DNA of 63,089 nt from Melioribacteraceae bacterium. GTDB lineage: Bacteria > Bacteroidota > Ignavibacteria > Ignavibacteriales > Melioribacteraceae. The stretch spans positions 1-63,089 of the forward strand of contig JALVFE010000033.1 of NCBI GenBank assembly GCA_027030245.1, in the 5' to 3' direction. Under the pieces are notes generated by a model. The model did not search any database. It saw nothing but the letters and a program-made list of their open reading frames with translations, and was not told the origin of the DNA. The translations under genes and the position numbers were made by a program. Shown piece by piece: positions 9,198 to 23,421 of the stretch; positions within the stretch are counted from its first letter, which is position 1; every line of letters begins with the position of its first letter.

Positions 9198-9710
9198 TTA
9201 TTTATTAACGTTTTTCCATAATTCTTTCAGGCATTCTTTTTTAAAACAGAACGGCGGCACGCTTTTTTTGTATTCCAAATAATCATTTCCGAATTTCTTA
9301 ATCGCTTCCGGTTCTTCAAAAACTTTAATCATTAAAATCATAAACAAAATTTCAAGCGGCGCAATAATCAATATAAAAGAAGGCGAACCAACCAAAAAGG
9401 CAATCGCTACGGGAAAAAGCATTAATCCCAAATGCATCGGATGGCGCATAAATTTATAAGGACCTTCTTTAACAAGAACATTTGTTTCGCCGCGCTTAAG
9501 GGTTCCTTTCCTTCCGTATTTTGCAAGCGTTCTGCCGGTATTCTTACTTATCCTTAACACAACCTTAAGCAAAAGGGCACCGGCAATGAAGCTAACAAGA
9601 TGGAACACAATATTGTAATGAATACCGGGGAAAAGTTTGCCGTCCAGATATAATCCGGCAGCAACTCCCCCGAAAACCATTATCAACCAAACTATAATTC
9701 TAAAATACAT
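9198..9710 (-). CDS. Isoprenylcysteine carboxyl methyltransferase-like membrane protein
   Basis: A 170-residue integral membrane protein with about four hydrophobic segments. The sequence GPYKFMRHPMHLGLML (about 85-100), and a late EPEAIKKFGNDYLEYKKSVP, are the SAM- and substrate-site motifs of the ICMT/phospholipid-methyltransferase (PEMT/NnrU-like) superfamily. The bacterial substrate is usually unknown. Confidence 0.8.
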   Translation of the reverse strand: MYFRIIVWLIMVFGGVAAGLYLDGKLFPGIHYNIVFHLVSFIAGALLLKVVLRISKNTGRTLAKYGRKGTLKRGETNVLVKEGPYKFMRHPMHLGLMLFPVAIAFLVGSPSFILIIAPLEILFMILMIKVFEEPEAIKKFGNDYLEYKKSVPPFCFKKECLKELWKNVNK

Positions 9711-9715
9711 AATAT

Positions 9716-9808
9716 TTAAATCATCAAGCTATTTAGCAAATCATTTATCCGAATAAATTGTTTAACTTCGTCAATGTTTTTATTTTCAAAGTAACTTGGC
9801 ATATACAT
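9716..9808 (-). pseudogene. Possible N-terminal remnant of a PaiB/FMN-binding family gene
   Basis: A 30-codon frame beginning MYMPSYFENKNIDEVKQFI and stopping soon after. The pattern MY-x-P-x-x-F followed by acidic residues and FI-x-x-N resembles the very N-terminus of PaiB-type FMN-binding regulators, whose usual length is about 200 residues. A ribosome-site-like AAGGG sits at the ATG. The rest of the family is absent downstream, so if real it is a truncated relic. A chance short frame is possible. Confidence 0.3.
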
Positions 9809-9851
9809 CCCTTAACAAAATATGTTCGTAGGTTCTTTAACGTTTACGGAA

Positions 9852-10346
9852 TTATTGCTTGAACTTGGCATGGCAATCTACACAATAGTTTAATGTAGTT
9901 GACAAAGCTTCAAGTGATTTGTTTATATCCTTAGATTTAAAAACTTCGCTCATTCTGTCCGCACTTTTGTGAAACTCCAATCCCAGTTTTTCAAATTCCT
10001 CATTCCCGAAAGCGGAACACATCATTTGCATTTCTTTTGTTAATCCTAAATTAGCCGATGCAACTTTCGATGCTTCTTCATATTTGCCTTCGGATAAAAA
10101 TTCCAAAATAGATTGAACGGATTTTAAATGATTTCTCATGTTCATCAATTGATGTTGCGCCATTTGCGCCGAAACATTAAGCGGAATACGGTTATCTTTT
10201 ACATGCTGCATTTTGTGCATCATACCAGCTTGATCTTTATTAATCGATTTTTCCTCTTGTTTATTTGCTTTATTTACATCGCATGAAGTAACTATGATTG
10301 CCGTAAATAGTAATGACAACGTAATTAGTGAAATATATTTTTTCAT
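9852..10346 (-). CDS. Lipoprotein with a single C-terminal haem c site
   Basis: A 164-residue exported protein. The ATG at 10346 is chosen for the AAGGAG ribosome site and because it gives a clean lipoprotein signal with the lipobox Cys at residue 22. The mature part is helical and Met/His rich (MMHKMQH near 43-49). It ends in CVDCH (155-159), a CxxCH haem c attachment motif, suggesting a small four-helix cytochrome of the c'/cytochrome b562 fold type. A distant functional twin is encoded near 31 kb. It may carry electrons or bind a ligand in the periplasm; the partner is unknown. Confidence 0.7.
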   Translation of the reverse strand: MKKYISLITLSLLFTAIIVTSCDVNKANKQEEKSINKDQAGMMHKMQHVKDNRIPLNVSAQMAQHQLMNMRNHLKSVQSILEFLSEGKYEEASKVASANLGLTKEMQMMCSAFGNEEFEKLGLEFHKSADRMSEVFKSKDINKSLEALSTTLNYCVDCHAKFKQ

Positions 10347-12479: not shown

Positions 12480-13148
12480 ATGCACATTATTGATGTAAAC
12501 AGTCAAATATTAAAAGAAAATTCAAGGATAGCCGAAGAAAACAGAAAATTGTTCGATGAAAAAGGGTTGTATGTTGTAAACATTATGTCCGCTCCCGGAG
12601 CCGGTAAAACATCCGTTCTGGAAGCAACGATAAAAAAGATTAAAGACGATTATAAAATATCGGTTATTGAAGGCGATTTACAAACATCAATCGATGCCGA
12701 CAGGATCGGAGCATTAAATATTTCATCTTATCAAATCGTTACCGGAACGGTTTGCCATTTGGATGCACGTATGATCCATAATGCTTTGCATGAATTTCAA
12801 CAAGACGGAAATGATATTCTGTTTATTGAAAACGTAGGCAACCTCGTTTGCCCCGCCGATTTTGAATTAGGTGAAAAACTTAAAGTGATGGTATTCAGCA
12901 TTGTTGAAGGCGCCGAAAAACCGAAAAAATATCCCGTAATGTTCCATGCGGTCGATGTTGTTTTATTAAATAAAATCGATCTGGCTCCTTATTCCGATAT
13001 CGATATTGAACTGTTAAAGAAAAATGTTTTGGAGATAAACCCCACCGCAACTATTTTCCCGGTATCATGTTCAACGGGAGAAGGAATAGAAGAGTGGGTT
13101 AATTGGTTCAAGAAAAAAGTTAACGAAGATAAAAACAGAAACAAATGA
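12480..13148 (+). CDS. hypB: Hydrogenase nickel-insertion GTPase HypB
   Basis: A 222-residue SIMIBI GTPase. The P-loop SAPGAGKTS is at about 37-45, the metal-site TVCHLDA near 95, and the NKID guanine motif near 165. The N-terminus lacks the poly-histidine stretch that some HypB proteins use for nickel storage; that role may fall to the transporter's His loop. A GAGGA ribosome site precedes the ATG. Its stop overlaps the hypF start by 4 bp. Confidence 0.95.
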   Translation: MHIIDVNSQILKENSRIAEENRKLFDEKGLYVVNIMSAPGAGKTSVLEATIKKIKDDYKISVIEGDLQTSIDADRIGALNISSYQIVTGTVCHLDARMIHNALHEFQQDGNDILFIENVGNLVCPADFELGEKLKVMVFSIVEGAEKPKKYPVMFHAVDVVLLNKIDLAPYSDIDIELLKKNVLEINPTATIFPVSCSTGEGIEEWVNWFKKKVNEDKNRNK

Positions 13149-15433
13149 ATATAGCGGTAAAAATATATGTCGCCGGTATTGTTCAAGGAGTTGGTTTCCG
13201 GCCGTTCATATACAATATTGCAAAAAGAAATAAACTCGTAGGACAAATTTATAACAATTCAAAAGGAGTAATTATAGAAGCCGAAGGTGAAAAAATAAAT
13301 GTCGATAAATTAATTTTTGCTATTAAAAACGAAGCGCCTCCTTTAGCATCCATTCGGGAATTGGAAACGGAATTTATAAATTCCACCGGTCTTAATGATT
13401 TCTTTATTAAAGAAAGCAAACTTGCCGAAGATAAATTGACCTTGATTTCACCTGATATTTCGGTATGCGATGATTGCTTGGAAGAACTGAAAAATCCCGA
13501 AGACAGGCGTTTCGAATATCCATTCATTAACTGCACAAATTGCGGTCCGCGCTATACAATTATAAAAGATGTTCCTTACGATAGACCCCAAACAACAATG
13601 AACGTATTTCAAATGTGTCCGGAATGTAAAAAGGAATATGAAAATCCGGACAATAGAAGATTTCACGCACAACCTATCGCATGCAAAAAATGCGGACCTA
13701 CATTAATGTTAAAGGATAATAAAGGTAAAATAATTTCTTCGGAAAATTTGATTAAGAAAGCCGTTAGTTTAATTAAACAAGGATTTATATTGGCAATAAA
13801 AGGACTGGGAGGATACCATCTTGCTTGCGATGCCCAAAATACAATTGCAGTTAGAAACCTCAGGAAAAGAAAATTGAGAATCGATAAACCGTTTGCCGTA
13901 ATGATTCCTTCGATTGAATGGTTAGACAAACTTTGTATTTATACCCCCAAAGAGAAAGAGTTGTTAACGGATATACGAAGACCGATTGTATTAATTAAGA
14001 GAAAAAAAGATTGCCCGGTAGCCGTAGACGTTGCCCCGCAAAATAATTACATCGGTTTAATGCTTCCATATACACCCCTGCACAAGTTAATAATGGAAAG
14101 TTATAACGTTCCGCTGGTTATGACGAGCGCCAACATTTCGGAAGAACCGATTGCATATCAAGATGATGACGCATTTGAACGGCTGAAAAATATTGCCGAT
14201 TATTTTTTAATTCATGATAGGGAAGTATACATCCGGTGCGATGATTCCGTTGCTGCTGTTTTAGGTAATAAGAAAACTATTTTAAGAAGAGCAAGAGGTT
14301 ATGTTCCAACCCCGGTCGAACTTCCGTTCAATGTGGAAAAACAGGTTTTAGCCGTAGGAGCTCATCTGAAAAACACTTTTTGCTTCTTGAAAAACAAATA
14401 TGCATTTATTAGCCACCATATTGGCGACCTGGAAAATTTACCGACTATGAAATCGTTTAAGCAAGGAATACTGCATTTCAAAAAAATATTCGATTTAAAT
14501 CCGGAATTAATAGTGCATGATTTGCATCCCGACTATCTCTCAACAAAATATGCACTCGATAAAAAAGATTGTAACAAAGTTGCCGTGCAGCACCATCATG
14601 CCCATATAGTAAGCTGTATGGTGGAAAATAATTTAAATGAAAAAGTTATTGGCGTCGCTTTTGACGGCACCGGATTAGGAACAGATGGAAATATTTGGGG
14701 CGGAGAATTTTTAATTGCGGATTATTTTTCATTTGAACGTTTTGCACATTTTGAGTATTTTGCATTACCCGGAGGTGAACTGGCAATTAAACAACCATGG
14801 AGAACGGCATACTCAATTTTATACAAACTATATAATTTCAACAACGGGGAGATATCAAAAGAGCGTTTCGATTTTTTAAAAGATAAGAATTATGAAATTG
14901 TATCCCGGATGTTGGAAAAAAATATTAATTCACCTCTAACGTCTGCAGCTGGCAGATTATTCGATGCTGTCTCCGCGTTATGCGATATAAGAACCGAAGT
15001 TAACTACGAAGCACAAGCTGCCATTGAATTACAAATGATTGCCGACGAGAAAGAAAAAGGTTCTTATAAGTTTGATATAATTAACAACAATGAAACTAAT
15101 AAGGTGAGTTTCGCGAAAATGATTTCCGGAATTATAAATGATTTGAAATCGGATATTCCTAAAAGTAAAATTTCGGCAAAGTTTCATAATACAATTGCCC
15201 GCGTCATTCTGGAAACGGCAAAACTTATTCATAAACAAAGGGGAATTAATAAAGTGATTCTAAGCGGAGGAGTTTTTCAAAATTCATTACTTTGCGATAA
15301 AACGTTAACATTATTGAAAAAAAACAACTTCGAAGTTTTTACCCATTCAAACGTTCCTCCTAACGACGGAGGGATATCATTAGGGCAAGCAGTTATAGGT
15401 TATTTCAAACATTTTAAAAATCAGAGGTATTAA
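13145..15433 (+). CDS. hypF: Carbamoyltransferase HypF (cyanide ligand synthesis)
   Basis: A 762-residue HypF of usual length. Domains in order are an acylphosphatase domain (GIVQGVGFRP, 11-20), two zinc fingers with exact family spacing (C108, C111, C130, C133, then C158, C161, C180, C183), a YrdC-like domain (about 200-390) and a Kae1-like carbamoyltransferase domain with the HHHAH motif near 480. It makes the thiocarbamate on HypE from carbamoyl phosphate, the source of the CN ligands of the Fe atom. It is coupled to hypB by the ATGA overlap and ends one base before hypC. Confidence 0.96.
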   Translation: MNIAVKIYVAGIVQGVGFRPFIYNIAKRNKLVGQIYNNSKGVIIEAEGEKINVDKLIFAIKNEAPPLASIRELETEFINSTGLNDFFIKESKLAEDKLTLISPDISVCDDCLEELKNPEDRRFEYPFINCTNCGPRYTIIKDVPYDRPQTTMNVFQMCPECKKEYENPDNRRFHAQPIACKKCGPTLMLKDNKGKIISSENLIKKAVSLIKQGFILAIKGLGGYHLACDAQNTIAVRNLRKRKLRIDKPFAVMIPSIEWLDKLCIYTPKEKELLTDIRRPIVLIKRKKDCPVAVDVAPQNNYIGLMLPYTPLHKLIMESYNVPLVMTSANISEEPIAYQDDDAFERLKNIADYFLIHDREVYIRCDDSVAAVLGNKKTILRRARGYVPTPVELPFNVEKQVLAVGAHLKNTFCFLKNKYAFISHHIGDLENLPTMKSFKQGILHFKKIFDLNPELIVHDLHPDYLSTKYALDKKDCNKVAVQHHHAHIVSCMVENNLNEKVIGVAFDGTGLGTDGNIWGGEFLIADYFSFERFAHFEYFALPGGELAIKQPWRTAYSILYKLYNFNNGEISKERFDFLKDKNYEIVSRMLEKNINSPLTSAAGRLFDAVSALCDIRTEVNYEAQAAIELQMIADEKEKGSYKFDIINNNETNKVSFAKMISGIINDLKSDIPKSKISAKFHNTIARVILETAKLIHKQRGINKVILSGGVFQNSLLCDKTLTLLKKNNFEVFTHSNVPPNDGGISLGQAVIGYFKHFKNQRY

Positions 15434-15434
15434 A

Positions 15435-15683
15435 ATGTGTTTATCAGTTCCAGGCAAAATAATATCGATAGACGAGAGCAATCCGGAATTAAAAATGGCT
15501 AAAGTTAATTTTGGCGGTGTGTCAAAAGATGTTTGTGTTCAATGGATCGATAACCCGAAAGTCGGCGAATATGTATTGGTGCATGTTGGTTTTGCTCTCA
15601 ATAAAATAGATGAAAAAGAAGCCGACGAAACAATTAAACTCTTGAAGGAAATGGGAGATTTGGACGAAGATTTCAATTACTAA
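15435..15683 (+). CDS. hypC: Hydrogenase maturation chaperone HypC
   Basis: An 82-residue OB-like protein beginning MCLSVPGKI. Cys2, essential once the Met is removed, and the GDYVLVH-type strand (here GEYVLVHVGFAL) identify it. It holds the Fe(CN)2CO group with HypD and escorts it to the large-subunit precursor. Only one classical hypC is present; a second HypC-like protein lies just before the structural genes. Confidence 0.95.
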   Translation: MCLSVPGKIISIDESNPELKMAKVNFGGVSKDVCVQWIDNPKVGEYVLVHVGFALNKIDEKEADETIKLLKEMGDLDEDFNY

Positions 15684-15726
15684 TTTATTTTACATTTATC
15701 AAAAATCCGGTTTGAGAAATTAAAAC

Positions 15727-16818
15727 ATAAAATATACTAAAGAATTCAGAGACCCCGTAGCAGCAAAAAAACTTTCCGAAAGGATTAAATCGGTTACAAC
15801 TAAATCGTGGACAATAATGGAGATTTGCGGCGGACAGACACACACAATAATGAAATATAATATTGATGAACTGTTACCCGACAAAATTAATTTAATTCAC
15901 GGACCGGGTTGCCCCGTATGCGTTACTCCGTTGGAAATGATTGATAAAGCAATTGCAATTGCTTCGAGGGAAGATGTTATATTTACGTCTTTCGGCGATA
16001 TGCTCCGGGTGCCGGGTTCTACATTAGACCTTCTCGGGGTTAAAGCAAACGGCGGCGATGTGCGAATGGTTTATTCACCTCTCGATGCCGTTAAAATTGC
16101 GGAAGAAAATCCGAACAAAAAAGTGGTCTTTTTTGCCGTCGGTTTCGAAACCACCGCTCCGGCAAATGCAATGGCTGCTATCCAAGCAAAACAAAAAGGA
16201 TTAAAAAATTTCTCAATCCTGGTATCTCATGTCCTTGTTCCCCCGGCTATTGAAGCGCTTTTAGATTCGGAGAATTCAAAAATCAAAGGCTTCCTTGCTG
16301 CGGGTCATGTATGCACCGTAATGGGTTTTCACGAATATATTCCTCTCTCTAAAAAATATAACATACCGATTATCGTTACCGGTTTTGAACCGATTGACAT
16401 TTTGCAAGGCATTTATGAATTGATTAAACAACTCGAAAACAACCGGGCCGAAGTGTTTAATGCCTACGGAAGGGTTGTTAGTAAGGAAGGTAACATACCG
16501 GCACAAAAATTATTATCGGAAGTATTTGAAATTGTCGATAGAAAATGGCGCGGGATTGGGGTTATTCCCAAAAGCGGATTTAAATTAAAAGATATTTACT
16601 CCGAATTTGATGCGGAAAAGTTGTTTGACGTTGGGGAAATTGAACAACAAGAGTCTCAATTTTGTATTTCCGGTGAAATTCTACAGGGAATTAAAAAACC
16701 CCAAGAATGTTCTGCTTTTGGGAAAGAATGCACCCCTGAACATCCTTTGGGTGCTCCGATGGTTTCTTCCGAAGGTGCATGCGCCGCTTATTTTCATTAC
16801 TATAAACGAATTAATTAA
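15727..16818 (+). CDS. hypD: Hydrogenase Fe-S maturation protein HypD (apparent ATA start)
   Basis: HypD assembles the Fe(CN)2CO centre with HypC. The EICGGQTHT motif and GPGCPVC motif mark the family, with cysteines near the C-terminus for its [4Fe-4S] cluster. The first ATG in frame is at 15817, but the 30 codons before it read (I)[19 protein letters not shown], the expected HypD N-terminus. In that stretch there is no ATG, GTG or TTG, and a stop lies two codons upstream of the ATA at 15727. Either translation starts at ATA, or the true ATG is mutated or miscalled, or a shortened protein is made from 15817. I annotate from the ATA because the homology begins there. Confidence 0.85.
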
Positions 16819-16823
16819 AAATT

Positions 16824-17870
16824 ATGAACATTATGAACTTAAATTGTCCGATACCAATTTCCGATTATCCGAAAGTTACTTTAGCTCACGGAGGCGGAGG
16901 AACATTATCCAATCAACTTATACAAAAAATGTTTTTCTCCCAGTTCGATAACGAACTGCTTAATACAACGCACGATGGAGCTATATTTAACGTGCCTTCC
17001 AACAGATTGGCATTTACAACTGATTCGTTTGTTGTAAAACCTATTTTTTTCCCGGGTGGAAATATCGGCGAATTGGCAATTAACGGAACGGTAAACGACT
17101 TGGCAATGTGCGGTGCAATTCCCAAGTTTATCTCGGTAGGATTTATTATCGAAGAAGGATTCGATATGGAAGACCTTTGGAAAATAGTACAATCAATTAA
17201 AGTTGCATCCGAAAAAGCCGGAGTTAAAGTTGTTACAGGCGATACAAAAGTTGTTGACAAAGGAAAAGGGGATAAAATTTTTATTAACACTTCCGGTATC
17301 GGGATAGTTGTTGACGGTGTAAACATAAATCCCAAAAACTGCAAACCCGGAGATAAAATTATTTTAAGCGGAAGAATTGCCGATCACGGCATCGCTATTA
17401 TGTCTGCACGGGAAGGGCTTCAATTCGAAACCACGGTGGAAAGCGATACAGCCCCCTTAAACGAACTTGTTAGCTCGATTCTGGATGTGTCGAAAAATAT
17501 AAAAGTTTTAAGAGACCCAACCCGTGGTGGAATTTCAAGCGCATTAAATGAAATTGCAGCTTCGGCTAACGTGGGAATAAAAATCCAAGAAGAAAAAATC
17601 CCCGTATCCGAACAAGTTGACAGTGCTTGCGAAATTCTCGGGCTCGATCCGTTGTATATTGCAAACGAAGGAAAACTTATAGCAATTGTTCCTCCAAACG
17701 ACGCCGAAAAAATATTGGAAGCTATGCGACGAAATGATTACGGTAAAGAAGCTGAAATTATAGGTGAGGTGGTTTCGGATCATCCCAAAACAGTTGTGAT
17801 GAAAACAACAATAGGAACAACCAGGATTGTTGATATGATTTCCGGAGAACAATTACCCAGAATTTGTTAA
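16824..17870 (+). CDS. hypE: Hydrogenase maturation protein HypE
   Basis: A 348-residue PurM-like ATPase. The glycine-rich AHGGGGTLSNQLIQ near 20-33 and the C-terminal PRIC, whose Cys is carbamoylated by HypF and dehydrated to a thiocyanate, are intact. A second ATG four codons in is an alternative start. It closes the accessory operon, 5 bp after hypD. Confidence 0.96.
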   Translation: MNIMNLNCPIPISDYPKVTLAHGGGGTLSNQLIQKMFFSQFDNELLNTTHDGAIFNVPSNRLAFTTDSFVVKPIFFPGGNIGELAINGTVNDLAMCGAIPKFISVGFIIEEGFDMEDLWKIVQSIKVASEKAGVKVVTGDTKVVDKGKGDKIFINTSGIGIVVDGVNINPKNCKPGDKIILSGRIADHGIAIMSAREGLQFETTVESDTAPLNELVSSILDVSKNIKVLRDPTRGGISSALNEIAASANVGIKIQEEKIPVSEQVDSACEILGLDPLYIANEGKLIAIVPPNDAEKILEAMRRNDYGKEAEIIGEVVSDHPKTVVMKTTIGTTRIVDMISGEQLPRIC

Positions 17871-17993: not shown

Positions 17994-18968
17994 TTGAGAA
18001 ACAATACGTCACTTTCTCTAATAACAAAAAATGAAACAATGAGAACTATTCTGTCAAAAATTGACAGGGTAGTTAATTCGGACAGTTCGATTTTATTAAT
18101 CGGGGAAACGGGAGTTGGTAAAGAGATCTTCTCGGATTACATTCACCGGACAAGTCACAGATCCGAACAACCTTATGTTAAAATTAGTTTGTCGGCAATT
18201 CCTCCGGATTTACTTGAAAGCGAATTATTCGGTCACGAAAAAGGTTCCTACACTAGTGCATCTAATGAGAAGAAGGGATTATTTGAGATAGCAAATAAAG
18301 GCACAATACTTCTTGACGATATAGACGATGTTCCAATGTCGATTCAAAAAAAATTATTGAGGGTTTTAGAAGCCAAAGAAATAATGCGAGTTGGGGGAAC
18401 CGATGTGATCCCTATCGATGTAAGAGTAATTTCGGCTTCCAAAATTGATTTGAAAGAACTTGTAAAACAAAAAAAATTCCGTGCCGATCTTTTTTACCGG
18501 CTAAACGTTGTGCCAATACACATACCACCGTTAAGAGAGAGACGGGACGATATCCCTTTGCTTATTGATCATTTCCTAAAAATATTTTCACAAGGCAAAA
18601 AACTTACTGTATCTAAAGAAGCTTTGAAATTACTGGTTAATTATTCATGGCCCGGAAATGTAAGGGAATTAAAAAACGTTATTAAAAGACAAGCTTTGTT
18701 TACCGAAAAAGTAATTTACCCAAGCAATCTTTCGTTAGAAATTAGAAACGAAAACTCATGGCAAAACCTTCTTAAAAAATGCAACCAGTGTTTTATAGAA
18801 GAGTCGATAAATTTCGAGTCGGTTGTTTCTTGTTTGGAACATAATCTTTTATACAGTGCATTGGAAAAGACAAATGGAAACCAAACACAAGCAGCAAAAA
18901 TTTTAGGATTAAATCTTTCGACATTCAGAGACAAAATAAAAAAGTACAAAAGCAAAAGTATTCCATAA
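17994..18968 (+). CDS. Stand-alone sigma-54 activator (AAA+ plus Fis-type HTH), likely hydrogenase regulator
   Basis: A 324-residue enhancer-binding protein with no N-terminal sensor domain; AAA+ begins almost at once, as in PspF. Walker A is GETGVGKE (37-44), arginine fingers R163 and R169 sit in FRADLFYRL, and a Fis-type helix-turn-helix lies at about 284-316. Two key places are unusual: the sigma-54 contact loop is GSYTSA (84-89) instead of GAFTGA, and Walker B reads ILLDD, with Asp109 for the usual Glu. Three cysteines (263, 266, 280) lie between AAA+ and HTH, recalling the Cys-rich linker of oxygen-sensitive NifA. TTG is taken as start because AAGGGA lies 7 nt upstream. It faces a sigma-54 promoter for the hydrogenase genes. 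Confidence 0.88.
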   Translation: MRNNTSLSLITKNETMRTILSKIDRVVNSDSSILLIGETGVGKEIFSDYIHRTSHRSEQPYVKISLSAIPPDLLESELFGHEKGSYTSASNEKKGLFEIANKGTILLDDIDDVPMSIQKKLLRVLEAKEIMRVGGTDVIPIDVRVISASKIDLKELVKQKKFRADLFYRLNVVPIHIPPLRERRDDIPLLIDHFLKIFSQGKKLTVSKEALKLLVNYSWPGNVRELKNVIKRQALFTEKVIYPSNLSLEIRNENSWQNLLKKCNQCFIEESINFESVVSCLEHNLLYSALEKTNGNQTQAAKILGLNLSTFRDKIKKYKSKSIP

Positions 18969-19004
18969 TAAATAATTGTCCACTTCGTTTCCTCACTTAA
19001 AACC

Positions 19005-19038
19005 TGCGGATTTCCACAAGTAAAAGTGCGGATTTCCA
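19005..19038 (+). promoter_or_regulatory. Two direct repeats, probable activator binding sites (UAS)
   Basis: TGCGGATTTCCA occurs at 19005-19016 and again at 19027-19038, start to start 22 bp, or two helical turns, so both would face the same side of the helix. They lie about 55-85 bp upstream of the -24 element, the usual distance for enhancer sites of sigma-54 activators. The adjacent activator gene ends 36 bp before the first repeat. Confidence 0.6.
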
Positions 19039-19090
19039 TAAATCTAATTTTCGACCGTTTGTTTTCAGCCCGTATCATTGTATTTAACGC

Positions 19091-19105
19091 TGGCATATAA
19101 TTTGC
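19091..19105 (+). promoter_or_regulatory. Sigma-54 (-24/-12) promoter of the hydrogenase operon
   Basis: TGGCATA-TAAT-TTGC fits the sigma-54 consensus TGGCACG-N4-TTGC with exact spacing and with the invariant GG and GC. Transcription should start near 19117, about 20 bp before the first gene. An activator gene and two upstream direct repeats are in the expected places. Confidence 0.8.
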
Positions 19106-19137
19106 CCAATCGTATATAATTATCTATATGAAGACTA

Positions 19138-19350
19138 GTGAGTAAAGATAACCCCGACAAAATTACACTTCTCGGTGAAGTAGTTGAAACATTTGAACAA
19201 AGCGGTAAAAAATATGCAAAAATATTATTCAGGACAGGATATTTAGAAGTATGCGTGGAAAACTTATCGAATACCAATTTGGGCGATAAAGTAAAAATTT
19301 ATGCTCACGTTTCAATCGACAAAGTAACTGATAAATTTATATTTATTTAA
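19138..19350 (+). CDS. Small HypC-like protein at the head of the hydrogenase operon
   Basis: A 70-residue protein with a GTG start, the first gene after the sigma-54 promoter and 19 bp before the small subunit gene. The strand pattern LLGEVVETF, YAKILFRTGYLEVCVENL, LGDKVKIYAHVSI parallels the small barrel of HypC/HupF (compare its GDYVLVHAGFA). It lacks the N-terminal Met-Cys that HypC needs; its single Cys is internal, at about residue 40. A dedicated chaperone for the hydrogenase is plausible, but this is inference and the family is unproven. Confidence 0.6.
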   Translation: MSKDNPDKITLLGEVVETFEQSGKKYAKILFRTGYLEVCVENLSNTNLGDKVKIYAHVSIDKVTDKFIFI

Positions 19351-19369: not shown

Positions 19370-20500
19370 ATGAAAATTAATTCCCCTACATATTGGGAAG
19401 CAATGCAGGCAAAAGGGGTTAATAGAAGAGATTTCCTTAAATACTGTGCGTGGCTCGGTGCGTTATTAGGCATTGAAGCCAGCGGTGTAGGTAAAATCGT
19501 ACACGCAATGGAAACCAAAAAGCGATTGCCTGTAATCTGGCTTCACGGTCAAGAATGTACTTGCTGCAGCGAATCATTTATTCGATCTTCCCACCCGGTT
19601 GTTGCTAATGTAATTCTAGATGACATTTCTTTGGATTATACCGAAACTTTAATGGCAGCTTCAGGGTATCAAGCGGAAAAATCTTACCGGGATACAATTA
19701 CCAAATACAAGGGCGAGTATATTCTATGTATGGAAGGTGCCATCCCAACGGGTAACGGAGGAGTTTATTGCTGCATCGGAGGACGTTCAATGGAACAAAT
19801 TCTTAAAGAAGCCGCCGAGGGTGCCAAAGCAATTATCGCTTGGGGCAATTGTGCAACGCACGGGTGTGTTCAAGCAGCAAAACCCAATCCAACGGGAGCT
19901 ACGCCGGTAAGAAAATTAATTAGCGGTAAACCTATTATTAACGTTCCCGGTTGCCCGCCGATTGCCGAAGTTATGACGGGAGTTATTGCCCACGTTCTTA
20001 CATTCGATAGAATTCCCGCTTTGGACAGCATGGGACGACCGAAAGCTTTTTACTCCAGAAGAGTTCACGATTCCTGTTACCGCCGTCCGAATTACGATGC
20101 CGGTCTTTTTGTAGAAACTTTCGACGATGAAAATGCTAAAAAGGGTTATTGTTTATATAAAGTTGGATGCCGTGGTCCCGTAACATATAATTCTTGTGCA
20201 ATAATGAAATGGAATAACGGTGTTAGTTACCCTATTCAATCCGGTCACGGTTGTATAGGATGCAGCGAACAGAATTTTTGGGATAACGGTCCGTTCTACA
20301 AACATTTACCGTCTTTCCCCGGTTTCCCGATTGAAAAAACTGCGGACGATATATGCATTGCGATTGGTGCCGCTACGGCAGCGGGAATTGCCGCTCATGC
20401 AATAACAACAAATATCAGAAAGAGAGCGGAAATAAAAGAAAAAGTTGAAAAAGGAAGAATAAAAAATATAGAAAAAGAAGAGGGGGTGAACAATGGCTAA
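19370..20500 (+). CDS. hyaA: [NiFe]-hydrogenase small subunit, oxygen-tolerant group 1 type
   Basis: A 376-residue iron-sulfur subunit exported by the Tat path (NRRDFLK at 18-24), with a strong AGGAGG ribosome site. It closely resembles E. coli HyaA. The proximal-cluster region has six cysteines: C63, C65, C66 in ECTCCSESF, C161 and C166 in GNCATHGC, and C195 in PGCPP. C65 and C166 are the two extra residues that give the [4Fe-3S] cluster of oxygen-tolerant enzymes. Medial and distal cluster ligands follow (YCLYKVGCRGP, GHGCIGCSE). A weak C-terminal membrane helix (about 338-352) fits membrane attachment to the cytochrome b. It overlaps the large-subunit gene by 8 bp. Confidence 0.95.
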   Translation: MKINSPTYWEAMQAKGVNRRDFLKYCAWLGALLGIEASGVGKIVHAMETKKRLPVIWLHGQECTCCSESFIRSSHPVVANVILDDISLDYTETLMAASGYQAEKSYRDTITKYKGEYILCMEGAIPTGNGGVYCCIGGRSMEQILKEAAEGAKAIIAWGNCATHGCVQAAKPNPTGATPVRKLISGKPIINVPGCPPIAEVMTGVIAHVLTFDRIPALDSMGRPKAFYSRRVHDSCYRRPNYDAGLFVETFDDENAKKGYCLYKVGCRGPVTYNSCAIMKWNNGVSYPIQSGHGCIGCSEQNFWDNGPFYKHLPSFPGFPIEKTADDICIAIGAATAAGIAAHAITTNIRKRAEIKEKVEKGRIKNIEKEEGVNNG

Positions 20501-22211
20501 AAGAATTGTAGTTGACCCGATTACAAGAATTGAAGGTCATCTTAGGATAGAGGCTGAAATAGAAAACGGTAAAATAGTTGACGCTTATAGTGCCGGAACC
20601 ATGGTAAGAGGAATTGAAATTATATTAAAAGGGCGTGATCCGCGAGATGCATGGGCTTTTACCGAACGTGTTTGCGGTGTTTGTACAACCGTTCATGCTT
20701 TAGCTTCTTGTAGAACGGTTGAAAACGCACTCGATATTAAAATACCTCCAAACGCGGAATTGGTACGAAACCTTATGTTTTCCGCCCAGCAAATGCAAGA
20801 TCACGTAATACATTTTTATCATCTTCATGCTTTGGATTGGGTGGATGTTGTTAGCGCATTAAAAGCCGATCCCAAAGAAACCAGCAGAATTGCCCAAAGT
20901 ATTTCCAATTGGGCAAAAAGCAGTCCGAAATATTTCTCCGATCTCCAAAAAAGATTAACCAACTTTGTTAATAGCGGGCAATTGGGAATTTTTGCGAACG
21001 GATATTGGGGTCACCCGGCTTATAAACTTCCGCCCGAAATAAACTTAATCGGTGTCGCTCATTATTTGGAAGCGTTGGAATGGCAAAAGGAAGTTATTAA
21101 AATTCATACCATTCTCGGCGGAAAAAATCCTCACCCCAATTATCTTGTTGGCGGTGCTCCCATATCAATCAATATCGATGAAGCAAATGCATTGAATATG
21201 GAAAGATTAAACATTATTCATAAACAATTAAAAGATGCAAAAGAATTCATTAACCAAGTGTACATTCCCGATATTCTTGCCGTTGCCCCTTATTATCTCG
21301 AATGGAGCAAAATCGGCGGTGGTCTGAAAAATTATTTGGCCTATGGCGATTTGCCTACAAACGGATATAATGATGTTTCCAGCTTTAAACTTCCCCGTGG
21401 AATTATACTTGACAGAAACTTGAACGAAGTAATTGATGTTGACGGTACCGATGAAGAACAAATCAAAGAATACATAGCTCATTCGTGGTATGAATATGAA
21501 GACGGTAGCAGTGGACCCAAACACCCGTGGCATGGTGAAACAAAATTAAATTATACCGGTCCGAAACCACCTTACGAATACCTCGATGTAAAAAATAAAT
21601 ATAGCTGGTTGAAAACTCCGCGATGGAAAGACAAACCGATGGAAGTCGGACCTTTAGCCAGAATGCTGGTTTCATATGCTAAGGGTGTTCCCGAAGTTAA
21701 AGGTTTAATTGATACCGTATTGGGAAAATTGAATGCACCGGCTTCGGTTTTATTCTCGACCTTAGGCAGAACAGCGGCAAGAGCAATAGAAGCTGCGGTT
21801 GTTGCCGATTGGGCTTTGGAATTTTATAACCAACTCATCTCAAACATTAAAAACGGCGATACCCGTATGGCAAATATGGAGAAATGGGACCCTGAAACTT
21901 GGCCGAAAGAAGCGAAAGGAGTAGGTATGACCGAAGCCCCGAGAGGTGCCTTGGCTCATTGGATAAGTATTAAAGATAAGAAAATTGATAATTATCAACT
22001 TGTCGTTCCGACAACTTGGAACGGTTCCCCCCGTGATGCTAACGGGAATCGTTCCGCATTCGAAGAATCATTGATCGGAACTCCGGTCGCCGATCCGGAA
22101 CAACCCTTGGAAATTTTAAGAACTATCCATTCATTCGATCCGTGTCTGGCTTGTTCCGTTCATCTCTACGATGAAAAAGGCACTTATGTTCATAGAGTAG
22201 AAACATTTTAG
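20493..22211 (+). CDS. hyaB: [NiFe]-hydrogenase large subunit
   Basis: A 572-residue catalytic subunit. The four nickel-binding cysteines are C61 and C64 (RVCGVC) and C551 and C554 (DPCLACSVH). The last 15 residues after His557 form the C-terminal extension that the maturation protease removes after nickel insertion. The protein has no signal and is exported by riding with the Tat-tagged small subunit. It oxidises H2 on the periplasmic side. Confidence 0.96.
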   Translation: MAKRIVVDPITRIEGHLRIEAEIENGKIVDAYSAGTMVRGIEIILKGRDPRDAWAFTERVCGVCTTVHALASCRTVENALDIKIPPNAELVRNLMFSAQQMQDHVIHFYHLHALDWVDVVSALKADPKETSRIAQSISNWAKSSPKYFSDLQKRLTNFVNSGQLGIFANGYWGHPAYKLPPEINLIGVAHYLEALEWQKEVIKIHTILGGKNPHPNYLVGGAPISINIDEANALNMERLNIIHKQLKDAKEFINQVYIPDILAVAPYYLEWSKIGGGLKNYLAYGDLPTNGYNDVSSFKLPRGIILDRNLNEVIDVDGTDEEQIKEYIAHSWYEYEDGSSGPKHPWHGETKLNYTGPKPPYEYLDVKNKYSWLKTPRWKDKPMEVGPLARMLVSYAKGVPEVKGLIDTVLGKLNAPASVLFSTLGRTAARAIEAAVVADWALEFYNQLISNIKNGDTRMANMEKWDPETWPKEAKGVGMTEAPRGALAHWISIKDKKIDNYQLVVPTTWNGSPRDANGNRSAFEESLIGTPVADPEQPLEILRTIHSFDPCLACSVHLYDEKGTYVHRVETF

Positions 22212-22220
22212 GAGATGGCG

Positions 22221-22898
22221 ATGGAAAAAAACACAGTATTAAAAAGAGTATATGTTTGGCAATTACCCGTGAGGTTTTATCATTGGTTAAATGCCCTTTG
22301 CATATTAATTTTAGCAATAACGGGTTATATAATCGGGAATCCTCCGGCTATACAAAGCGGAACCGAAGCATTTAAAGGATATTGGTTCGGTACCGTAAGA
22401 TTTATTCATTTCGTTACCGCCTTTGTATTTTTCTTTAATTTCGTTTTTAGAATCTATTGGGGTTTTGTCGGTAACCGTTTTGCCAAATGGAATAATTTTA
22501 TTCCTTTTAAAAAATCGGATTGGAAAGGGATGTTACGCATTATTATGATTGATATTTTACAGAAGGAATCCCGCCCGTTAAGAAAAATCGGGCACAATTC
22601 ACTAGCCGGATTTACTTATTTTATCCTCTTTATAATATTCTTACTGCAAAGTATAACGGGTTTCGGTTTGTATTCAGCCATGAGCACTTCGTGGTTCCCA
22701 AAATTGTTTTCCTGGATAGTTCCGTTTTTAGGAGGCGATCTCCAAGCCCGGCAGTTGCATCATGTTTTGATGTGGTTTTTCATTCTCTTCGCTTTCGTGC
22801 ATGTGTATTTGGTTTTTTATCACGATTATGTTGAAGGCAGGGGAATTATTTCTTCTATGGGCGGCGGTTGGAAATTTATAGAACGGGAAATCAAATAA
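22221..22898 (+). CDS. hyaC: Hydrogenase cytochrome b subunit
   Basis: A 225-residue di-haem cytochrome b of the HyaC/HupC family with four membrane helices. Histidines in FYHWLNAL, FIHFVTAF, LHHVLMWFF and FVHVYLVFYHDY are the haem ligands and quinone-site marks. It takes electrons from the small subunit to the quinone pool. An AGGAG site favours the second ATG (22221) over the ATG six bases earlier. Confidence 0.93.
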   Translation: MEKNTVLKRVYVWQLPVRFYHWLNALCILILAITGYIIGNPPAIQSGTEAFKGYWFGTVRFIHFVTAFVFFFNFVFRIYWGFVGNRFAKWNNFIPFKKSDWKGMLRIIMIDILQKESRPLRKIGHNSLAGFTYFILFIIFLLQSITGFGLYSAMSTSWFPKLFSWIVPFLGGDLQARQLHHVLMWFFILFAFVHVYLVFYHDYVEGRGIISSMGGGWKFIEREIK

Positions 22899-22913
22899 GT
22901 TAACATTTTCATT

Positions 22914-22937
22914 GCGGGATTTTATCCCGCATTTTTA
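22914..22937 (+). terminator. Rho-independent terminator or attenuating hairpin after the cytochrome b gene
   Basis: GCGGGAT-TTT-ATCCCGC followed by ATTTTTAT. The 7-bp GC-rich stem with a T-rich tail lies between the cytochrome b gene and the maturation protease, so the protease may be made by read-through or from its own promoter. Confidence 0.65.
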
Positions 22938-22965: not shown

Positions 22966-23421
22966 ATGAATAATAAAATTTTGATCATGGGTATCGGCAA
23001 TGTTTTACTCGGTGATGAAGGAATTGGTGTGCACGTAATTAATTCTCTCAAAAAGAAAACTTTTCCGAATTATGTCGATATTGTTGACGGGGGAACCGGG
23101 GGATTCCACTTACTTTCGTATTTCCACGACTATCCGAAAATGATAATGATTGATGCCACAATGGATGGAAATCCACCTGGCACAATATCCGTGCTTAAAC
23201 CGAAATTTGCATCCGATTTCCCAACAGCATTAAGCGCCCATGATATCGGACTTCGCGATTTGATTGAGACCGCCATAATTTCCAACGGATTACCCGAAAT
23301 CGTTTTAATTACTATTTCCATCGACAGAATTCAAAATATGGTAATGACTCTCTCGCCGGAAGTAAAAAACTCAATTCCGGGTATTATTAGTTTAATACAA
23401 AAAATTTTAAGCAGTTCCTAG
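22966..23421 (+). CDS. hyaD: Hydrogenase maturation endopeptidase
   Basis: A 151-residue member of the HybD/HyaD/HupD protease family. The start MNNKILIMGIGNVLLGDEG has the family glycine pattern with the metal-sensing Glu18, and DGGTGGFHLL and HDIGLRDL (with His) follow. It clips the C-terminal extension of the large subunit when nickel is in place. The ATG at 22966, preceded by AAGG, is chosen over an upstream TTG. Confidence 0.92.
   Translation: MNNKILIMGIGNVLLGDEGIGVHVINSLKKKTFPNYVDIVDGGTGGFHLLSYFHDYPKMIMIDATMDGNPPGTISVLKPKFASDFPTALSAHDIGLRDLIETAIISNGLPEIVLITISIDRIQNMVMTLSPEVKNSIPGIISLIQKILSSS

Follow-up and report, generated by a model that had tools for sequence, protein, structure and literature searches.

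How transcription of a [NiFe] hydrogenase operon is switched in a Melioribacteraceae bacterium, and to which signal the switch responds, is the question raised by the stretch of DNA analysed here (63,089 nucleotides, hereafter the window). The operon, on the forward strand like all genes of the window described below, comprises the hydrogenase small subunit (19370-20500; PF14720 and PF01058, with TIGR00391 over its cut-off), the large subunit (20493-22211; the sole PF00374 match in the genome) and the b-type cytochrome subunit (22215-22898; PF01292, with TIGR02125 over its cut-off). It encodes the one [NiFe] hydrogenase detected in the genome (97.72%-complete assembly). The small subunit contains ECTCCSES and GVYCC segments; such additional cysteines are a hallmark of oxygen-tolerant enzymes. 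A terminator-like stem-loop (22913-22931, forward strand), recognized in the sequence between the cytochrome and protease genes, suggests that the hydrogenase maturation protease (22966-23421; PF01750) may be read separately, terminator-like sites occurring in the region at chance number (5 found vs. 6.1 expected). For the protease itself, the ATG at 22966 seems a likelier start than the listed TTG at 22912. Upstream of the activator gene lie maturation genes that we take to be hypB, hypF, hypC, hypD and hypE (12480-17870), with Pfam support for B, C, D and E, and hypF called from its translation.

We consider it very likely that a sigma-54 switch with its own activator controls this operon, an estimate drawn from sequence that covers the switch and excludes its signal. 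In the mechanism that we infer, from activator binding and the start site to the signal and any role of the small gene orf70, the stand-alone activator would bind two palindromic operators through its Fis-type helix-turn-helix (HTH), would then form an AAA+ ring and open sigma-54 RNA polymerase at 19091-19105, and the sigma-54 promoter would drive orf70, the hydrogenase small and large subunits and the cytochrome b. An exactly spaced -24/-12 promoter had been placed by the initial annotation in the gap behind the activator gene (18969-19137), and we find it there: TGGCATATAATTTGC (19091-19105, forward strand) matches the familiar -24/-12 consensus exactly, with GG-N10-GC spacing. It is the sole match in the window at up to one mismatch, and shuffled sequences average 2.43; the count of matches in the window alone thus lends the promoter no significance, and its evidence is therefore its position and its conservation. 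From the position of the -12 GC, transcription is predicted to start at 19117 on the forward strand, 12 bp past the -12 C, by promoter geometry only. The gene rpoN, whose absence had been named as grounds for rejecting the switch, is present elsewhere in the genome (one PF04552 match, E 9.3e-62).

The same gap holds the two repeats that had been described as 22 bp apart and at enhancer distance, and both particulars stand: TGCGGATTTCCA occurs twice, at 19005-19016 and 19027-19038, 22 bp apart. The repeats themselves need redescribing as degenerate palindromes, with the operator consensus TRCGGAWWTCCGYA. Operator 1, TGCGGATTTCCACA (19005-19018, assigned to neither strand), is an imperfect palindrome with a matrix score of 18.1, is conserved in homologous loci and is centred at about -105 from the predicted start; operator 2, TGCGGATTTCCATA (19027-19040, likewise assigned to neither strand), scores 16.3 and is centred at about -83. 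Scanning the window with the matrix returns the operator pair at 19005-19040 only. On its own, TGCGGATTTCC is frequent (10 exact copies; 85 forward and 64 reverse when up to one mismatch is allowed), so that the evidence lies in pairing and conservation only. The strict pair pattern CGGANNTCCN{11,14}CGGANNTCC has one match in the 3.8-Mb genome, at the hydrogenase switch. Over 97 relatives it matches 7 genomes, and a backward control pattern one; G000 and G015 have their match at the hydrogenase locus, and G001, G017, G029, G048 and G084 have theirs elsewhere. Since the strict pattern misses most true pairs and has off-locus or hydrogenase-less matches in 5 of the 96 other related genomes, uniqueness in the genome holds for the strict pattern only. 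The off-locus matches (L188, L189, L190, L192 and L193) may be chance or other targets.

Relatives of the small subunit were drawn from two sources, the 97 related genomes (8 matched at E 1e-60, own genome included) and a scan of genome contigs (the best 80 of at least 576). The palindromic matrix, with consensus TRCGGAWWTCCGYA, was built from the gaps following the activator in 17 loci; it was seeded with a consensus picked out by eye in these training loci, and L059, L068 and L073 were excluded from training. Two operator copies with centres 21-22 bp apart are found in 15 of the 17 training loci. At a stricter threshold, pairs occur in 14/17 training loci, in 7/9 held-out activator loci and in 3/69 loci in which no activator was seen (61 of them with at least 500 bases scanned), and in none of 100 rounds of shuffled sequence per group. 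Of the two held-out loci without a pair, L166 has one site, and L073 has its pair beyond the stretch that was scanned; one strong operator instead of two is present in L046, L056 (the two single-copy training loci) and L166. The initial annotation had proposed looking for the same repeat ahead of hydrogenase genes in related genomes, and it is there in 26/26 activator loci. Among the 86 loci with more than 450 bp upstream (8 of 94 were left out for too little upstream DNA), a strong operator accompanies the activator in all 26, as a pair in 22; where orf70 is present and the activator is not in view, the pair is found in 3/3, and where neither is present a strong operator is found in 0/57. These rows are not independent events, since the matrix was trained on 17 of the 86 loci and several near-copies are among them. 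L055, a copy of L037, was dropped from this count and kept in the stricter-threshold pair count, and L073 was scanned here in a hand-set stretch, its pair having already been found. In family f21 (L164-L167), the activator is encoded on the opposite strand, at the operon's downstream end, the operators are still upstream of the small subunit, and no orf70 was found.

A -24/-12 element lies 40-150 bp past the last operator in 26/26 units, with 0.9 expected (up to two mismatches in 11 specified bases; the shuffles preserve base composition only). These units, 17 training and 9 others, differ from the 26 activator-bearing loci of the 86-locus count, and L158's second activator, L161 and L163 fall outside them; for L052, L057, L059, L061 and L073 the stretches were placed around operators already found. 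The distance from operator to element is 56-59 bp in 17 units (57 in the window), 70 in one, 116 in two and 126-128 in six, and the -12 GC is missing in L036, L038, L057 and L162.

On a tree of the hydrogenases, the module label is clustered, with 8 changes, of which starred branches force at least 5, vs. 26.3 in shuffles, and its rows belong to Ignavibacteriota, Bacteroidota and Acidobacteriota, plus one record labelled Chlorobiota. A prediction test on four genomes in which orf70 was in view and the activator was not (three of them with an operator pair, and L060 cut too short to tell) recovered a cysteine-type activator in 4/4; that of L052 is on the same contig, just past the stretch read, and the other three are on other contigs. 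The activator was likewise found in 3/3 positive controls and in 0/23 other genomes, these negatives being of our own choosing and including L067 with only 118 bp upstream. Another negative, L068, has a hydrogenase nearly identical to that of L063, and its upstream DNA matches L063 in separated pieces only. Across the sequences compared, activator, operator pair and promoter co-occur in different lineages far beyond chance, and the view that operators, promoter and activator belong together is well supported at the sequence level.

The activator is a stand-alone protein of 324 residues with a TTG start (17994-18968, forward strand), assigned by Pfam to an AAA+ domain, lid and Fis-type HTH (PF00158 at 214.5 bits, PF25601 and PF02954). 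No receiver, GAF or PAS domain was matched by Pfam, including an N-terminal receiver of the NtrC/HoxA type, and homologues begin at about the same place. A search with the predicted fold gave sigma-54 activators for all 50 matches listed. Its GAFTGA loop reads GSYTSA (within window positions 18018-18521); S, T or N is frequent at the fifth position in the activator family, and other activators of the genome have GAFTDA. Between the AAA+ lid and the HTH, the aligned activators share a CX2CX13C motif (residues 263-280; 18780-18833), whose three cysteines (C263, C266 and C280) do not vary among 17 aligned sequences, and which is also present in 13 copies found by profile and in 7 copies from the prediction test (the sets overlap). 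None of the genome's 16 other full activators (17 in total) has a CX2C in its C-terminal part. With a nine-row profile of the activator's C-terminal part, 14 copies were detected, in open frames of 320-340 residues, in at least 13 of 395 genomes of the phylum; as only 12 candidates per genome were scored, this number may be low. In the predicted structure (pLDDT 80, pTM 0.55), residues 255-268 and 274-292 form two successive helices before the HTH, an arrangement in which the cysteines may face each other. As no N-terminal sensor domain was found, the CX2CX13C motif is the most likely input, and we put at about even chances that this linker motif acts as a redox, metal or Fe-S switch. A cysteine-based redox control has been proposed for NifA (PMC10590331). 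In the NifA of Gluconacetobacter, however, a Cys pair directly preceding the HTH is reported in the same paper to leave DNA binding unaffected by redox state, which calls for caution in claiming a cysteine sensor here.

Between the promoter and the hydrogenase genes lies orf70 (19138-19350, forward strand), the first gene of the predicted transcript, encoding a 70-residue protein; this HypC-like gene, like the sensorless architecture and the cysteine motif of the activator, had escaped the initial annotation. The protein has no match among Pfam and NCBIfam models, and its sequence has one match to solved structures, at E 0.23. An iterated orf70 profile recruits HypC unaided, which may partly be drift, and direct comparison of the orf70 and HypC profiles gives E 7e-5 with a probability of 63%. 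The structural model is a small beta-barrel (pLDDT 86) that matches HypC (3d3r, Z 5.5) and a molybdate-binding barrel (1fr3, Z 6.0) equally well, a tie; a fold search returned nothing below E 0.001, and on a second comparison HypC did not rank above other barrels. orf70 resembles HypC/HupF in profile and, in the model, as a small barrel, but it differs in being unmatched by their models and in its N-terminus, since the Met-Cys that is invariant in 8 aligned HypC sequences is absent from all 15 aligned orf70 sequences. The protein is HypC-like, not HypC.

The presence of this conserved small protein beside an activator without a matched sensor domain raises the alternative that the activator, like PspF, is active by default and restrained by a partner protein, with orf70 as the candidate anti-activator in a negative feedback and the cysteines purely structural. 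PspF consists of AAA+ and HTH only, an architecture shared by the window's activator. An operator is present at each of the 24 loci that have orf70 and more than 450 bp upstream, and orf70 is still found behind the activator ahead of non-hydrogenase genes (L159, L161). However, the profile detected no orf70 in any of the four f21 loci, in L163 or behind L158's second activator, cysteines with a structural role alone should be less constant than these are, and the activator, with its conserved cysteines and different target, scores below the cut-offs of the NCBIfam pspF models (266.4 vs. 443.55 bits and 222.3 vs. 529 bits). We regard this alternative as unlikely.

It is far less probable that the operon is read from a sigma-70-type promoter, with the -24/-12 match being incidental. 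Sigma-70-like matches are present in the region, one of them at 19051-19078, but at chance number (22 vs. 18.7 expected), a count that is weak evidence because the consensus may not suit this organism; the -24/-12 element, by contrast, is conserved at set distances from the operators. Least probable of all is two-component H2 sensing as by HoxA with a regulatory hydrogenase, for which the precedent is the sigma-54- and HoxA-controlled hydrogenase genes of Cupriavidus necator (PMC10073562), whereas the window's activator has no receiver domain and the single [NiFe] large subunit of the 97.72%-complete assembly means that no regulatory hydrogenase is seen.

A sigma-54 switch worked by its own activator, possibly through the cysteine motif, remains our preferred reading, and it has partial precedents. 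In C. necator, HoxA is a sigma-54 activator of hydrogenase genes (PMC10073562), and the likeness is that one activator drives sigma-54-dependent hydrogenase genes; HoxA, however, is described there as a response regulator that phosphorylation by HoxJ inactivates, with a regulatory hydrogenase above it, whereas in the window's system neither a receiver nor a second [NiFe] hydrogenase was found. NifA of alpha- and beta-proteobacteria has a GAF domain and four cysteines, whereas our activator has no GAF domain and three cysteines, arranged as CX2CX13C in the linker, and reaches 312 bits with the NCBIfam nifA model, below the cut-off of 528.85. Sigma-54 control of [NiFe] hydrogenase has been reported in Proteobacteria, the group named in passages of a survey (PMC12316311). 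The accessible open-access literature yielded no description of a sensorless cysteine activator wired to an operator pair and orf70. What appears to be new is the wiring of a sensorless, cysteine-bearing activator to a hydrogenase; sigma-54 control of hydrogenases and the proposal of cysteine-based redox control in NifA were known. If the switch operates as proposed, sigma-54 control of hydrogenases would extend beyond Proteobacteria, the regulon would be defined by sequence and recognisable in uncultured genomes, and the activator would offer a small system for testing cysteine-based control, with no sensor domain interfering.

Hydrogenase genes are not the only neighbours of the module. In 10 of 13 activator genomes, the hydrogenase small subunit is found within the 10-15 kb read around the activator, and in the other three it is not. 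The proposal that hydrogen uptake is switched by sigma-54 and one dedicated activator fits this genome, with its one strict-pattern pair and one [NiFe] large subunit, but not the whole family, one of these three genomes having no PF00374 match at all. In that genome, G060, the activator, operator pair, a degenerate -24/-12 element and orf70 follow in order (L159, 7143-8499) and precede an LVIVD-repeat protein with a type IX secretion-signal domain. In G057, the activator and orf70 are located ahead of a protein with multihaem cytochrome matches, and the genome's one PF00374 match is weak (53 bits) and about 8 kb away from the activator gene. Near a contig end in G301, a 4Fe-4S protein is preceded by the activator, a single weak operator and a -24/-12 element that is exact, and the several PF00374 matches of that genome are weak and on other contigs. 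At L161, a single weak operator was found, and no -24/-12 element even when two mismatches were allowed outside GG and GC. With non-hydrogenase genes behind the module, the activator may respond to a signal wider in scope than hydrogenase maturation; this would be compatible with redox or metal control. Somewhat short of an even chance, in our estimate, is the fuller proposal of a distinct activator family that senses redox state or metal at the three-cysteine linker site, has a cysteine-less HypC relative as its partner, and controls the hydrogenase in most lineages and surface or electron-transfer genes in others. L158 (G015) carries a second activator copy (9353-10312) with two weaker operators of its own and a -24/-12 element, followed by an open reading frame with a weak match to the protease.
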